Shown here in pieces: positions 1 through 39,663 of a DNA stretch of 42,238 bases. This stretch comes from Desulfobacterales bacterium (GTDB lineage Bacteria; Desulfobacterota; Desulfobacteria; Desulfobacterales; JAOZSB01). A program made the translations under genes and the position numbers. Numbering within the stretch: position 1 is the stretch's first letter; every line of letters starts with the position of its first letter. The stretch lies in NCBI GenBank assembly GCA_029939895.1, contig JAOZSB010000003.1, positions 1 to 42,238 on the forward strand. Direction: 5' to 3'. The notes beneath the pieces are model-generated. The model worked only from the letters and a program-made list of their open reading frames with translations. It searched no databases and was not told the DNA's origin.

Positions 1-27
1 AATTACAGCACGTTGGGTGCTATTCTA

Positions 28-106
28 AAAAGTTAAACGGGACACTACTGACCTTAAATATAAACTAAGGGGTTGGCTTCGACAAAACATTAAAGTTTAT
101 TGGGAG
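28..106 (+). repeat. Truncated copy of the 79-bp SD-tailed repeat
   Basis: This is a single copy whose first half is eroded and whose second half is intact. It contains ATAAACTAAGG, then GGCTTCG, then AAAGTTTATTGGGAG, ending 5 nt before the ATG at 112. Its GGGAG (102-106) is the Shine-Dalgarno of the downstream gene. The middle stretch GGCTTCGACAAAACATT is shared with the copy that precedes rpsE at 36100-36178, so these two look like close relatives. The left boundary is uncertain. Confidence 0.75.
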
Positions 107-5422: not shown

Positions 5423-5502
5423 TTTTTTGCTTATTTCATAATCAGACCTTCGGGATAGACTAAGCAATCGGCTTCATTGTTACATTTAAGTTAACTATGA
5501 AG
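5423..5502 (+). repeat. Degenerate copy of the 79-bp repeat (no gene attached)
   Basis: This copy has the T-run, GCTTATTTCAT, the apical CAGACCTTCGGG, ATAGACTAAGC and GGCTTC blocks. It ends AAGTTAACTATGAAG, so the terminal Shine-Dalgarno is lost. No start codon follows. The A-to-G change in the 3' arm (ATAGACT) keeps pairing as a T-G wobble. It lies on the same strand as the two further copies that precede the YcaO gene. Confidence 0.8.
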
Positions 5503-5633: not shown

Positions 5634-5793
5634 TTTTTTTTGCTTGTTTCATAATCAGGCCATCGGTATAAACCAGGCAATTGGCTTTGATGTTAATTTT
5701 AAGTTTATTAGGAGTTTTTTGCTTATTTCATAACCAGACCACCTGGATAAACTAAGCAAAAGGCTTCGATGTTAATATTAAGTTTATTAGGAG
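5634..5793 (+). repeat. Two tandem copies of the SD-tailed repeat upstream of the YcaO gene
   Basis: The copies are 5634-5714 (81 bp) and 5715-5793 (79 bp), head to tail. The first has GCTTG and CAGGC in place of GCTTA and TAAGC, a compensatory change (A-T to G-C) plus a T-G wobble in the hairpin. The second has a perfect CCAG/CTGG apical pairing. Its terminal AGGAG (5789-5793) lies 7 nt before the GTG at 5801 and is the Shine-Dalgarno of that gene. Confidence 0.9.
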
Positions 5794-5800
5794 ATTAACG

Positions 5801-7528
5801 GTGAAGACACGACTGACGCTAAAGGATTCAAAGAAAACCTATAAATACGATCAAGACAAAACCATGAAGCCAGAGGAAACCGTGGAGAAGTTCATGGGAA
5901 GGCTTCAAAACACAGGCCTTGATATTTTGGAAGAAGTAGTTCGCATAGACAACGGAAGGCTTGGAATCCCGGTCTATTTCAGTGTATGCGGCAAAGATGC
6001 CAAAAGGACGATTGGCACAAAAAAGCAGATGGGCAAGGGCGGAACCATTGAGCAGGCCAAGGCCAGTGCGGTTATGGAACTTGCTGAACGGTTCAGCTTT
6101 TTCAGTTTTGTTAAGGATCTTGAAAATTTTCAACAGGGAACCCACAAAGATTTTGCAAAGGATGCAGTCCCCTATGACATGATAATGAAATCTGTTCACG
6201 ATGAAACAGATGAGGCAGCAAAGCTCAAGGAAATATACGAAAACCTGCCCATGCGCTGGACATGGGGTTACAACATCTCAAGGGATGAAAACATGCTCGT
6301 CCCCTTTGACTGGTTTTTTACAATCAACGAATTCAACGGCCCATCATCGGGCAACACCAACGAGGAAGCAATTGTTCAGGGTATCAGCGAAATCGTAGAA
6401 CGCCATGTATGCTCCATCGTAAGCAGGGAAAAGATAAAGGCGCCGCTTATTGAGCTTGATTCTGCTGACCAGCCACTGGTTGTTGAGATGCTCGAAAAAT
6501 ACAAAAGCAACGGCATAGAACTCTATGTTTCAGATTTTACGCTCGATACGGGGATTCCCACTGTTGGGGTGCTTGCCCTTGATCCATCAACCTTCCCGGA
6601 AACAAGCGAGATTGTCTGGACAGCAGGTACTGCGCCTGATCCACAAAAGGCCTTTTCCAGAGCATTGACCGAAACCGCACAGCTTGCCGGGGACTTCAAC
6701 ACCTCGTCAAACTACCTTGCAAGCGGGCTGCCGAAGTTCGATAATATTAAGGATGCTGCATATATAATGGAGCCGGGCAGCAGTGTAAAAATTTCTGACC
6801 TGCCTGATATTTCCGACGACAATATTAAGGTGGAAGCGCAAAATGCCATTGACGCACTCAAGCAAAGAGGGTTTGATGTCATTCTCATAAACACCCGCCA
6901 CAAAGATCTTGATATACCGGCATTTTATACAATCGTGCCAGGAACCCATTTCAGGGAACGTGCCGTGAATACAAGCATGGGAATGTTCCTCTCACGCCTG
7001 GTCATCGCCAACCTGCCAGTTGATGCTGCGCTGGAACAACTGACACAGATGGATGCAATTATTCCAGGCATGTACTACATAAAATTCCAGACAGGACTGT
7101 GCCGCCTCAATATGGGAGAGATTGATGCTGCGCTCAGCGATTTTTCCTCGGCCCTTGAGCTGTCGCCAGGTGTTGAGGACATACCCAGCATATATTCCTA
7201 CATAGGTGTCTGCTACCGTGAAAAGGAAGATTATACAGCAGCCCTTGAGGCCCTGCAAAAGGGGGAGGAGTACGACACCCAGAGAACAGACATCCATAAC
7301 ATGATGGGATTTTGTCATTTCAAGCTGAAAAATCATGAACAGGCAATAACGCACTTTAAAAAGGTGATAGACCTTGATCCATCCTCAGCCATTGATTACG
7401 CAAATATCGGCATCAACTACAGGGATCTTGGCAATAAGGACGAGGCAATCAAATTTTTCACCACTGCCCTTGAAATTGATCCAACCCTTCATTTTGCACA
7501 GGAGAACCTGATCCGGCTTATGAAATAA
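5801..7528 (+). CDS. YcaO-domain protein with C-terminal TPR repeats
   Basis: This 575-residue protein has an N-terminal YcaO ATP-binding fold (about residues 30-410). ELAER (93-97), with Glu93 and Glu96, and QGISEIVERH (193-202) match the conserved nucleotide and magnesium-binding glutamates of YcaO enzymes. A C-terminal block (about 424-575) holds four TPR-like helical pairs. YcaO proteins activate amide backbones with ATP to form azolines or thioamides, or act with other partners. Here no precursor peptide, TfuA or dehydrogenase gene is adjacent, so the substrate is unknown. The TPRs suggest a protein partner. The GTG start is set by AGGAG, 7 nt upstream, supplied by the repeat. The gene stands alone between divergent hisB and a bidirectional terminator. 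Confidence 0.85.
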   Translation: MKTRLTLKDSKKTYKYDQDKTMKPEETVEKFMGRLQNTGLDILEEVVRIDNGRLGIPVYFSVCGKDAKRTIGTKKQMGKGGTIEQAKASAVMELAERFSFFSFVKDLENFQQGTHKDFAKDAVPYDMIMKSVHDETDEAAKLKEIYENLPMRWTWGYNISRDENMLVPFDWFFTINEFNGPSSGNTNEEAIVQGISEIVERHVCSIVSREKIKAPLIELDSADQPLVVEMLEKYKSNGIELYVSDFTLDTGIPTVGVLALDPSTFPETSEIVWTAGTAPDPQKAFSRALTETAQLAGDFNTSSNYLASGLPKFDNIKDAAYIMEPGSSVKISDLPDISDDNIKVEAQNAIDALKQRGFDVILINTRHKDLDIPAFYTIVPGTHFRERAVNTSMGMFLSRLVIANLPVDAALEQLTQMDAIIPGMYYIKFQTGLCRLNMGEIDAALSDFSSALELSPGVEDIPSIYSYIGVCYREKEDYTAALEALQKGEEYDTQRTDIHNMMGFCHFKLKNHEQAITHFKKVIDLDPSSAIDYANIGINYRDLGNKDEAIKFFTTALEIDPTLHFAQENLIRLMK

Positions 7529-12395: not shown

Positions 12396-12486
12396 ATTTC
12401 GATTTATGATTCAGAAATTTTTGAAATTAGGAAGAAAGCAATCTTAAATTCAACAATTTCGAAGTCATATGAAATTTATTAAGAGA

Positions 12487-12723
12487 TTTTTTGCTTATTT
12501 TATAACCAGATCACCTGGATAAACTATGCAAAAGGCTTCATTGTTAATATTAAGTTTATTGGGAGTTTTTTTGCTTATTTCATAACCAGGCCTTCGGTTT
12601 AACTAAGCTAAAAAGCTTCGTTAAAAATCTAAGTTTATTGGGAGTTTTTTTGCTTATTTCATAACCAGACCTTAGGGATAAACAAAAATCATCGCTTCGT
12701 TAAAAATCTAAGTTTATTGGGAG
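12487..12723 (+). repeat. Three tandem 79-bp SD-tailed repeats upstream of secE
   Basis: Units are 12487-12565, 12566-12644 and 12645-12723, exactly 79 bp each, head to tail. Each ends in AAGTTTATTGGGAG followed by T-rich sequence or the gene. The second has an AACC/GGTT apical pairing. In the third the TAAGC arm has become AAAAA, so its main hairpin is lost while its GGGAG still serves secE (GTG 6 nt away). A decayed end of a possible fourth unit (TTCG...AAATTTATTAAGAG) precedes them at about 12456-12486. Confidence 0.93.
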
Positions 12724-12729
12724 TTATTT

Positions 12730-13101
12730 GTGGGACGGTTACAGAAAAAAAAGCCAATAGATAAAAAAAGAAAAAATGGCGTGCGCAATGATGGCAACGG
12801 TGCAGAAGCTTCAGAAAATGGAGCAATAGTACCTGAGTCGTCAAAAAATACAAAAATCCAGACCAAGCCCGGGCCAAAGTCTTTTAAATCCACAAAGATT
12901 AAAAAGACCGATGGAAAGATTGGCAAGGCTTTACAATTTTTCCGCGAGGTAAAAGTTGAGCTGGAAAAAGTAACATGGCCTACAAAACAACAGACAATGG
13001 GCTCTACTGCCGTTGTGATTGTACTTGTTATGATAATTTCAATGTTTCTTGGAATCGTTGATTTTGGGCTGACGGAAGCTGTCCGTTTTATTCTGCAGTA
13101 G
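12730..13101 (+). CDS. secE: Preprotein translocase subunit SecE
   Basis: SecE clamps SecY in the inner-membrane Sec translocon. The conserved amphipathic block FFREVKVELEKVTWPTKQQT spans residues 70-89. One transmembrane helix follows at about 92-112. Thus it is the single-span form. Residues 1-60 are a basic, low-complexity extension rich in Lys, Asn and Ser, unusual for single-span SecE, which is often 60-80 residues in total. GTG 12730 is set by GGGAG 6 nt upstream, provided by the last of three repeats. If a start downstream of the extension were used the repeat SD would be wasted, which favours the long form. Confidence 0.93.
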   Translation: MGRLQKKKPIDKKRKNGVRNDGNGAEASENGAIVPESSKNTKIQTKPGPKSFKSTKIKKTDGKIGKALQFFREVKVELEKVTWPTKQQTMGSTAVVIVLVMIISMFLGIVDFGLTEAVRFILQ

Positions 13102-13162
13102 TGGCTGTTAATATGGTTTTGGAAGAGGCAGTTTCAGGAGCATAATTAAAATTTATTGAAAG

Positions 13163-13322
13163 CTTTTTTGCTTATTTACTAACCAGGCCACATGGATAAA
13201 CTAAGCAGATAGTTTCGATGAAAATTTTAAGTTTATCAGGAGATTTTTACTTATTTCATAACCAGACCTTATGTATAAACTAAGTGAAAATGCTTCGTTG
13301 TTAATGTTAAGTTTACTAGGAG
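13163..13322 (+). repeat. Two tandem SD-tailed repeats upstream of nusG
   Basis: Units are 13163-13242 and 13243-13322, 80 bp each. The second unit has ACTTA and TAAGT where others have GCTTA and TAAGC: the outer G-C pair is replaced by A-T on both strands, a compensatory change. Its AGGAG (13318-13322) lies 6 nt before the nusG GTG. A decayed repeat end (AAATTTATTGAAAG) precedes the array. Confidence 0.92.
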
Positions 13323-26181: not shown

Positions 26182-26340
26182 TTTTTGCTTACTTTATTAA
26201 AATTAACGGCAAAGATAAACTAAGCAATCGGCTTCAAAAAAAAATCTAAGTTTATTAGGAGATTATTTGCTTATTCCATAACCAGTTATCAGGTATAGAC
26301 TAAGCAATTGGCTTCGAAAAAAATTTAAGTTTATTAGGAG
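26182..26340 (+). repeat. Two tandem SD-tailed repeats upstream of the second tuf
   Basis: Units are 26182-26261 (80 bp) and 26262-26340 (79 bp). The second reads GCTTATTCCAT and ATAGACTAAGC: a T-A pair of the stem has become C-G on both strands, a compensatory change. Its AGGAG (26336-26340) lies 11 nt before the tuf ATG. A decayed unit end (GGTTCGCAAAGTGGGAG) precedes the array at 26165-26181. The array occupies the place where fusA would be expected. Confidence 0.92.
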
Positions 26341-30332: not shown

Positions 30333-30350
30333 ACACACACTTTTATAAAA

Positions 30351-30382
30351 AGCGTAGATGGAAATTTTAAGTTTATTAGGAG
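30351..30382 (+). repeat. Terminal half of the SD-tailed repeat upstream of rpsS
   Basis: Only the 3' part is recognisable: AGCGTAGATGGAAATTTTAAGTTTATTAGGAG, written here in pieces AGCGTAGATG and TTTTAAGTTTATTAGGAG. It closely matches the end of the first nusG unit. AGGAG lies 5 nt before the rpsS ATG. The hairpin half is absent. Confidence 0.75.
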
Positions 30383-30387
30383 ACAAG

Positions 30388-30666
30388 ATGCCCAGGTCGT
30401 TAAAAAAAGGCCCGTTTATTGAAGACAAGCTAATGAAGAAAGTCCTCATGGCCCAAGAGCAGCGGAGCAACAAGGTGATAAAAACATGGTCGAGAAGATC
30501 GACTATAATACCTGAGATGGTTGGGCTTACGCTGGCCGTTCATAATGGGAAAAAGTTTATACCAGTGTTTGTGACAGAAGATATGGTAGGGCATAAGCTG
30601 GGTGAATTTTCTCCGACCAGAACTTTTTATGGTCATGCCAGCGGCAAGAAAACTAAGGTTAGATAA
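30388..30666 (+). CDS. rpsS: 30S ribosomal protein S19
   Basis: S19 is in the 30S head next to S13. It has 92 residues from ATG 30388, giving the typical [15 protein letters not shown] start. A longer in-frame start upstream would translate the repeat and is rejected. [45 protein letters not shown] is the family core. Its Shine-Dalgarno is the repeat AGGAG, 5 nt away. Confidence 0.98.
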
Positions 30667-31714: not shown

Positions 31715-31794
31715 TTTTTTGTTTATCTTGTAGATTAACCCTTTAAAGTAAGCAAAAATCTAAGCTTCGTAAAAACATTAAAGTTCGACTGGAG
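31715..31794 (+). repeat. Divergent 80-bp SD-tailed repeat upstream of rplP
   Basis: This is a single diverged copy, about 80 bp. It keeps the T-run, GTTTAT, TTAACCC, AAGTAAGC, the GCTTCG block and the end AAAGTTCGACTGGAG. GGAG (31791-31794) is 7 nt before the rplP ATG. A decayed end of another unit (GGTTCGTAAGAAAAG) precedes it. The hairpin arms are less clean here. Confidence 0.7.
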
Positions 31795-34757: not shown

Positions 34758-35075
34758 CCTTTTGCTTATTTACCGCAATAACCAGGTGAATGAACTGAAT
34801 TTATAAAAGGCTATGTTGTTAGATTTAATCATTTAGAGCTTGTTTGCTTTTTTTTTAACCGAAACATCGGGATAAACAAAATCATAGCTCAGTCAAAAAT
34901 TTTGGTTTATTAGAAGCTTTTTGCTTATTTCATAACCAGACCAGCGAAATAAACTAAGCAACCTGCTTCGAAGGTAATTTTAAGTTTATTGGGAGTTTTT
35001 TTGTTTATTTCATAACCAAACCACTTGGATAAACTAAGCAGAAAGCTTCGTTGTTACTATTAAGTTTATTGGGAG
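34758..35075 (+). repeat. Four tandem SD-tailed repeats upstream of rplF
   Basis: Units are about 34758-34838, 34839-34916, 34917-34995 and 34996-35075. They fill the whole rpsH-rplF gap. Divergence decreases towards the gene: the first is badly eroded, the last two are near consensus. The second has a CCG/CGG apical pairing. The fourth has CCAA/TTGG instead of CCAG/CTGG, a compensatory change in the apical stem. The last GGGAG (35071-35075) is 6 nt before the rplF ATG. Confidence 0.92.
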
Positions 35076-35081
35076 TACAAA

Positions 35082-35618
35082 ATGTCGCGAGTTGGCAAAA
35101 AACCGATAGAGATACCTGCAAAGACAACAGTATCATATAAAGATAGGGTTGTGACTGTTAAGGGGGCAAAGGGAAGCCTTGATTTGACCGTGCATCCGGC
35201 AGTCGATCTTTTAGTTGAGGATAGCAAAGTTAACGTCAACCTTATAAAAGATGACAAACAGAGCAGAGCAATTCAGGGCTTGATGAGATCTCTTGTCGCA
35301 AATATGATTATTGGAACAGACAAAGGCTTTGAAAAAATTCTGGAGCTTAACGGGATAGGTTATAAGGCTGAAGTTAAAGGAAATCAAATATTATTCAACC
35401 TTGGCTTTTCACATCAGATTAGTTTTGAGTTGCCAGAAAGCATCAGCGCAACCATTGATAGAAAGCAGATAAAACTTACCGGGATTGACAAAGAAATTCT
35501 GGGAAGAACCGCTGCATCCATTAGAGATCTAAGGCCACCTGAGCCATATAAGGGCAAGGGCATTAAATATCTTGAAGAGAGAATAATCAGAAAGGCTGGC
35601 AAGACCGGCGCAAAATAA
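35082..35618 (+). CDS. rplF: 50S ribosomal protein L6
   Basis: L6 is near the factor-binding site of the 50S subunit. It has 178 residues in two similar domains. MSRVGKKPIEIPAKT and the C-terminal RPPEPYKGKGIKYLEERIIRKAGKTGAK are signatures. ATG 35082 is set by the repeat GGGAG 6 nt upstream. rplR follows after 18 bp. Confidence 0.98.
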   Translation: MSRVGKKPIEIPAKTTVSYKDRVVTVKGAKGSLDLTVHPAVDLLVEDSKVNVNLIKDDKQSRAIQGLMRSLVANMIIGTDKGFEKILELNGIGYKAEVKGNQILFNLGFSHQISFELPESISATIDRKQIKLTGIDKEILGRTAASIRDLRPPEPYKGKGIKYLEERIIRKAGKTGAK

Positions 35619-36020: not shown

Positions 36021-36178
36021 TTTTATTTGCTTGTTTGTTAACCGAGCCATTTGAATAAACAAAGGTAATGCTTCGCTAAGAATTTAAGTTTATTAGGAGC
36101 TTTTTTGCTTATTTCATAACCAGACCTTAGGGATAAACTATGGTTTGGCTTCGACAAAACATTTAAGTTTATTGGGAG
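36021..36178 (+). repeat. Two tandem SD-tailed repeats upstream of rpsE
   Basis: Units are 36021-36099 and 36100-36178, 79 bp each. The first reads GCTTGTTTGTT and AATAAACAAAG, which still pair with one bulged A. The second keeps GCTTATTTCAT, but TAAGC has become TATGG, so its lower stem is broken. Its GGGAG (36174-36178), extended by G to GGGAGG, lies 7-8 nt before the TTG start of rpsE. Confidence 0.92.
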
Positions 36179-36186
36179 GAAAGTCC

Positions 36187-36681
36187 TTGATAAGGCGAGA
36201 ACAGGAAGATAGTCAATATATCGATAAAGTCGTTTATATAAACCGTGTTGCAAAGGTTGTTAAGGGCGGACGTAGATTCAGCTTTAGTGCGATTGTTGTT
36301 GTAGGAGATGGCCAGGGCATGGTTGGTTTCGGCCTGGGCAAAGCTGGAGAAGTCCCAGAAGCGATAAGAAAAGGCGTTGAAAAGGCCAAAAAAACTATGG
36401 TCAGTGTTCCTCTTGTAGATGGAACCATACCTTACGAAGTTGTTGGGAGGTACGGCGCTGGCAGGGTACTTTTAAAACCAGCCTCACAGGGAACTGGCGT
36501 TATTGCCGGTGGTGCTGTTCGTGCTGTGCTTGAAGCGGTCGGCGTTCAGAATATTCTTACCAAGTGCCTTGGATCGAACAACCCTCATAATGTGGTAAAA
36601 GCGACTATCAGCGGGCTGAGTGGTTTACAGAGCAAGGAACAAATAGCTGCAAGACGCGGAATTAACCCTGCGGATCTTTAA
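36187..36681 (+). CDS. rpsE: 30S ribosomal protein S5
   Basis: S5 lies on the 30S body near mRNA entry and affects accuracy. From TTG 36187 it has 164 residues, the normal length. [29 protein letters not shown] and the [32 protein letters not shown] block are diagnostic. An upstream in-frame start at 36145 would translate the repeat itself ([11 protein letters not shown]) and place the Shine-Dalgarno inside the coding region, so it is rejected. Confidence 0.95.
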
Positions 36682-39566: not shown

Positions 39567-39663
39567 TCTAAGGTTTATCAGGAGTTTTTTATTTTATTGT
39601 CTTCCATATCTTATGGATTAGCTAAATAAAATGCTTCGATGAAAAATTTAAGTTTATTGGGAG
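39567..39663 (+). repeat. SD-tailed repeat and an older unit end upstream of rpsK
   Basis: The first unit survives only at its 3' end (CTAAGGTTTATCAGGAG, 39568-39584). The second unit is complete at 79 bp (39585-39663), but its hairpin is rewritten. ATTTTATT pairs with AATAAAAT, and CCATA pairs with TATGG. At the outer two positions both G-C and C-G became A-T and T-A on both strands. The GCTTCG block and TTTAAGTTTATTGGGAG end are unchanged. Here the start codon is 14 nt after GGGAG, farther than elsewhere. Confidence 0.85.

Follow-up and report, generated by a model that had tools for sequence, protein, structure and literature searches.

Units at the rplF locus and elsewhere in the window

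The gap between rpsH and rplF in the window (the whole stretch of DNA analyzed, 42,238 nt) measures 324 nt and is filled by four tandem units on the forward strand, compared with a median of 63 nt (range 15-156 nt) at 15 related loci; the gaps before rplF, rpsE, and rpsK all exceed the medians of related operons. The nearest relatives of this rplF belong to Desulfobacterales, the best with 64% identity. The first, gene-proximal unit (34997..35075) carries GGGAG 6 nt before the ATG of rplF at 35082 (Pfam Ribosomal_L6). It is preceded by a second unit near consensus (34917..34996), a third, diverged one (34840..34916) whose Shine-Dalgarno (SD) sequence has decayed to AGAAG, and a heavily decayed fourth (34760..34839) that starts 2 bases past the rpsH stop codon. 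From the farthest to the nearest unit the nhmmer scores are 5.9, 44.4, 69.3, and 67.6 bits, the third unit giving 34.2 bits with the family model. None of 500 dinucleotide shuffles scores as high as the fourth unit, whose full-profile z is 4.1 and whose body is matched by none of 200 shuffles. The gradient given in a preliminary description of this DNA, with the farthest unit barely recognizable, the next one diverged, and the last two near consensus, is thus borne out, and judging from its sequence the fourth unit is probably the oldest of the array.

The unit is 78 to 80 nt long (about 79 nt), with the family-model consensus TTTTTTGCTTATTTCATAACCAGACCTTCGGTATAAACTAAGCAATTGGCTTCGATGAAAAATTTAAGTTTATTAGGAG, and its 3′ end is the SD sequence TTTAAGTTTATTRGGAG, which contains a GGAG of its own. 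Besides rplF, head-to-tail arrays stand before secE, nusG, tuf2, rpsE, and a YcaO gene (SecE, NusG, EF-Tu, S5, and YcaO by Pfam), and like the other window copies described here they lie on the forward strand. Three units starting at 12487, 12567, and 12646 (12487..12723, family model) precede the GTG start of secE at 12730 and show no clear grading (64/60/68 bits), while the two units before nusG (13164 and 13243; 13164..13322, family model) show a slight gradient in the opposite direction (64/58 bits). The far unit is the more diverged of the two before tuf2 (26182..26340, 39/58 bits), where a plain GGGAG lies directly 5′ of the array, and of the two before rpsE (36022..36178, 45/72 bits; TTG start at 36187). 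The two units before the YcaO-TPR gene at 5801 (5636..5793) score 67 and 77 bits. The paralogous tuf1 gene matches tuf2 at 99% over 300 nt of the repeat found, carries a plain AGGAGG and no unit, and the pair is a filled/unfilled contrast between paralogues. Alleles of one locus with and without a unit were not encountered.

Diverged or partial units occur at four further genes. A single strongly diverged unit precedes rplP (31715..31794; 34.8 bits with the window-derived model, 21 bits with the family model), a diverged one precedes rpsK (39585..39663; S11 by Pfam), and the 3′ half of a unit (30349..30382; 16 bits, E = 4e-4) lies before the ATG of rpsS at 30388 (S19 by Pfam). The 3′ part of another (52..106) lies before an NAD-epimerase gene at 112, also assigned by Pfam, and is truncated on the 5′ side where a high-copy repeat, which occupies window positions 1 to 51, comes to its end. 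The pattern AACGGGACACTACTGACNTT of that repeat, with up to three mismatches, has 150 occurrences in the source genome. Of the 100 matches listed, nearly all lie no more than about 60 nt from the end of a contig, the picture that assembly breaks at a high-copy insertion sequence would give. A solitary unit (5423..5501, 62 bits) has a well-preserved body and no qualifying open reading frame behind it, and ends in ATGAAG instead of GGAG, in agreement with the earlier statement that this copy serves no gene and has lost its SD. The automatic starts of rpsS (30358), rpsE (36145), and rpsK (39639) fall within units, so the units can mislead gene calling; better starts lie behind the unit SD at 30388, 36187, and about 39678, respectively.

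Eroded ends had also been described just upstream of the secE, nusG, tuf2, rplP, and rpsK copies. For nine window loci with an array or a single unit, the preceding 92 nt were scored against shuffles, and the last 17 or so unit positions are recognizable before secE (12473..12485), nusG (13150..13163), and rpsK (39568..39584), with none of 2000 shuffles reaching the observed score in each case. The body of an older unit was not detected at these three places (P =.25,.60, and.24, respectively), and the full-length score upstream of rpsK is suggestive (P =.003). No eroded unit was found upstream of tuf2 (end P =.05, full-length P =.65), where the match is essentially the plain GGGAG, or upstream of rplP (P =.25 and.25), which has only an SD-like or purine stretch. 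The claim holds for secE, nusG, and rpsK only as short end remnants and fails for tuf2 and rplP.

A dispersed family in the source genome

The source draft genome comprises 4.70 Mb in 529 contigs and is 94% complete. The pattern TAAGTTTATTNGGAG occurs at 180 places in it, compared with 2 for reversed-pattern controls, and CM matches number at least 168, with 150 of 4421 candidates scored. Sampling the window together with 127 stretches taken around the listed pattern and CM places gave 216 HMM unit matches in 149 arrays, 98 of them single, 40 double, 7 triple, 3 of four units, and 1 of five. As this sample favors high-scoring copies, the numbers of copies and the mean scores carry a bias, and the comparison of near and far units within an array should escape that bias. 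Judged by eye, the genes behind the units are of very many kinds; ten gene names were tested with Pfam, and the others, like the breadth of downstream functions, come from reading of the sequences. The density of units in the translation-gene region of the window is higher than in the genome, with 9 pattern hits compared with 1.6 expected, hits within one array not being independent.

The family appears confined to this genome among those compared. A search of 388 further genomes from the order gave no comparable repeat family, and no genome of the same taxonomic family was among those compared; a 17-base pattern (up to one mismatch) occurs at 183 places in the source genome and in 18 of the 388, at one place each. 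None of 80 rplF loci of other genomes has a unit match at E ≤ 1, a CM search of 57 other genomes returned one weak match (G047, E = 7e-4), and viral contigs (searched with two patterns), plasmids, and phages gave no unit match. Full-text literature searches listed no paper recognized as a description of this element, which does not establish that it is new to the literature.

GGAG as probable insertion target

An exact GGAG forms the 5′ flank of 50 of 131 arrays (38%), compared with a background of 0.7% in the same neighborhoods, and at least three of the four bases agree in 87 of 131 (background 9.9%); at two control offsets GGAG is found in 0 of 130. The remaining 62% of the 5′ flanks are not exactly GGAG, even beside well-preserved units. 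In 35 of 49 exact GGAG flanks the preceding 12 nt are unlike a unit end (seven matches or fewer) and reveal no remains of an earlier copy, which indicates that this GGAG belongs to the host. It is presumably the former SD of the gene, and in 25 of 33 cases virtual excision of the units leaves the old GGAG at a spacing of 6 to 10 nt before the start codon. The preference is equal at sites with no gene behind them, where the flank is within one mismatch of GGAG in 24 of 42 cases (control 3/42), and this suggests targeting of the sequence as such. Single examples look suggestive of a target-site duplication by eye, but among 79 single copies the flanks agree no more than expected from the column composition, and a duplication is rejected. 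The flank preference supports the earlier idea that insertion takes place next to the start codon.

The SD at the end of the unit is mostly retained where a gene follows. Of 78 gene-adjacent units, 68 have kept an intact GGAG, compared with 17 of the 42 that have no gene behind them (P = 1.6e-7); the bodies of the two groups do not differ (P =.47). These counts agree with the proposal that the nearest copy takes over ribosome binding. Distal units have kept GGAG in 39 of 52 cases, not significantly fewer than gene-adjacent ones (P =.10), and this comparison does not help the takeover claim.

Decay and growth of the arrays

We consider the units to be a short non-coding mobile element that inserts 3′ of a GGAG-like site and replaces the SD, with older copies drifting, and we assign this reading, drawn from sequence comparison, a probability of about 70%. 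The insertion point of a copy would lie immediately 3′ of a GGAG-like site already present, very frequently the SD of the gene, and the GGAG of the element would replace the displaced SD at much the same spacing (5-9 nt) ahead of the start codon. As the end of the element recreates the target, later copies could enter at the gene-proximal SD in turn and shift the older ones upstream. Newer insertions would land preferentially at this proximal site, and in the displaced copies the old SD and the body would no longer be selected and would drift. The element would presumably be moved by an enzyme.

Decay of distal copies is seen genome-wide. Of 51 multi-unit arrays, 47 were scored after removal of those that contain N or lack sufficient length. 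In these 47 the body of the distal unit, SD tail excluded, scores lower than the proximal one in 38 and higher in 9 (Wilcoxon P = 1.9e-5), with means of 52.2 and 71.6 bits, respectively. Where a gene follows the array, the distal body is lower in 29 of 34, as expected if older copies drift, and in 22 of 26 when full-length units before genes are compared (P = 5e-4); in arrays with no gene behind, the trend (9/13) is weaker and not significant. Hidden decayed units are also found in the 92-nt upstream flanks, 15 of 112 having z > 3, compared with 1 of 115 downstream flanks, though these are often coding. The decay trend of the preliminary description is therefore strongly confirmed genome-wide, and its details are confirmed in part.

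The same gradient could reflect constraint and not age, if the proximal unit were a functional leader under selection and the distal ones decayed as spare copies. Proximal units before genes do keep their SD (30/33) and score high, and arrays with a gene behind show the gradient most clearly (29/34 compared with 9/13). However, the bodies of gene-less units are equally well preserved, with a mean of 73.7 bits compared with 74.1 for proximal units of gene arrays and 67.1 for single units before genes, and it is their SD that has decayed (17/42 intact). Only the SD therefore looks constrained by the gene, and age explains the body gradient better than constraint does, although the ascertainment of high-scoring copies blurs this picture and weakens the inference. 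We regard constraint as an unlikely explanation, if the strongest of the alternatives.

Growth of the arrays through slippage or unequal exchange acting on a single ancestral unit beside the start codon is less probable still. Among the 50 pairs of adjacent units, nine share an identity of 0.88 or more, with full identity in three, and need local duplication or conversion; one contig also ends with three equal-scoring copies. The other 41 pairs fall below 0.88, mostly at values that random pairs also take (mean 0.736, SD 0.077), and this suggests independent insertions. Neighboring units in the rplF array have identities of 0.61 and 0.78, compared with the random-pair mean of 0.736. On a loose classification, 18 of 51 arrays, including those of secE and rplF, mix two unit types, and units also form junctions with a different element. 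Where insertion or duplication had been left as alternatives for array growth, the arrays thus appear to have grown mostly by independent insertion of different family members, with duplication in a minority. A structured regulatory RNA leader, of the ribosomal-protein autoregulation or riboswitch-like kind and duplicated before translation genes, would suit the position in the 5′ leader and the local excess in the ribosomal-protein region (9 hits compared with 1.6, not independent), but it is rejected as highly improbable since shuffles fold as well as the consensus (z = −0.24, RNA), 110 aligned units give no consensus pairs on either strand, Rfam gives no hit, the downstream genes are of very many kinds by eye, and gene-less copies exist.

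The different element is longer, and units abut it exactly at GGAG (counted by eye). The unit is followed by the long element at ten junctions (L152, L167, L173, L182, L185, L236, L237, L245, L261, and L267), and the long element is followed by the unit at three (L160, L194, and L280). It is non-coding, follows GGAG, starts with CATGTAGTCCGCTTTGCGAATTAACC, and ends with ATCGATTAATTTAAGTTTATTAGGAG (L261, L237, L167, L173, and L245). Its 3′ terminus also carries TTTAAGTTTATTRGGAG, so the longer element too brings an SD. Internal modules recur 164 nt apart at several places, and in searches its left end gave 14 matches (two mismatches allowed) and its right box 58 (three allowed). Operons of related Desulfobacterales have palindromic intergenic repeats of their own (L006, upstream of rplF; L004, 1289-1391 and 1736-1857), and the one at L006 is similar to the GGCAGTTTTCATTCAGGCAC box within the long element.

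Comparison with known mobile elements

The reading as a mobile element was compared with described systems. MITEs such as Correia elements are small, non-autonomous, and dispersed, and bring expression signals. The units differ from Correia-type MITEs in having no detected target duplication and no terminal inverted repeats noticed in the consensus by eye, and the same two observations speak against a MITE of a DDE transposon. A reverse-transcribed element (retro-type or derived from a group II intron) is not supported either, with no reverse transcriptase hit (PF00078) in the 94% complete genome, while 3 of 14 control genomes are positive. For the Y2 transposase of IS91-type rolling-circle elements (PF04986), neither the source genome nor any control genome gave a hit. 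No autonomous, enzyme-coding copy was seen by eye in the stretches fetched around the hits, and the mobilizing activity may have died out or may lie outside the assembled sequence.

Two Y1 (RAYT-like) transposase genes are present in the source genome (L268 on contig C76 and L269 on contig C24). They are flanked by other repeats of their own, and no unit lies within the surrounding 2.3 to 3.3 kb, which leaves the Y1 transposases unsupported as the source of the units. Palindromes of the GCCCTGAAGGGGC type, similar to the Y1 flank repeats, adjoin some units, for example at L238.

In layout the units resemble IS200/IS605 (Y1 HUH) insertion sequences and their non-autonomous derivatives. As described in the portion of PMC6006769 drawn on here, these insert 3′ of a short left-flank target, end in a tetranucleotide of their own, and have an orientation fixed to the target strand, and no target duplication is detected for the units either. 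GGAG as left-flank tetranucleotide is strongly preferred here but not fixed (50/131). The units differ in that both the target and the right end are GGAG, the SD core, and in that they have neither a linked transposase nor an above-chance subterminal hairpin, the consensus folding like shuffles with no consensus pairs. Further details of the IS200/IS605 layout used in this comparison are general background. By analogy, the layout may work like a single-strand insertion of the IS200/IS605 type, and we treat this as a candidate likeness.

With REP/REPIN sequences and their RAYTs, as far as the parts of PMC3116915 and PMC6006769 used here describe them, the units share being short, many-copy, intergenic, and non-coding, in a genome with two Y1 genes. 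They differ in being neither palindromic nor inverted doublets and in having GGAG instead of GT[AG]G (PMC3116915, PMC6006769, same parts). Their orientation is tied to genes and they carry what looks like a functional SD. The head-to-tail arrays in one orientation and the lack of a stable fold do not fit REP/REPIN membership. The TAACTGA direct repeats of Beggiatoaceae, in the part of PMC4679880 consulted, also lie directly upstream of start codons, including those of ribosomal-protein genes, in one orientation. Those repeats are 7-nt units, mostly with no SD (about 10% of regions have one), whereas the units here are 79 nt long and end in an SD (PMC4679880, same part).

Implications

Tentatively, and with rather less assurance than for the mobile element itself, the units may represent a class of elements that use the SD core both as target and as their own end, sit between SD and start codon, and heal the start each time, repeatedly. 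Essential genes would then be a safe harbor, arrays would be ordered in time, and at least one longer element with a different body would share the trick. If the proposed reading is true, a mobile element enters essential operons (rplF, rpsE, secE, nusG, tuf) harmlessly by way of a replacement ribosome-binding site, which would provide a concrete route for the growth of 5′ leaders and a genome-wide rewriting of translation starts. The stacked arrays would record the order of insertions in time, and the search for an enzyme that reads GGAG would become a testable one.
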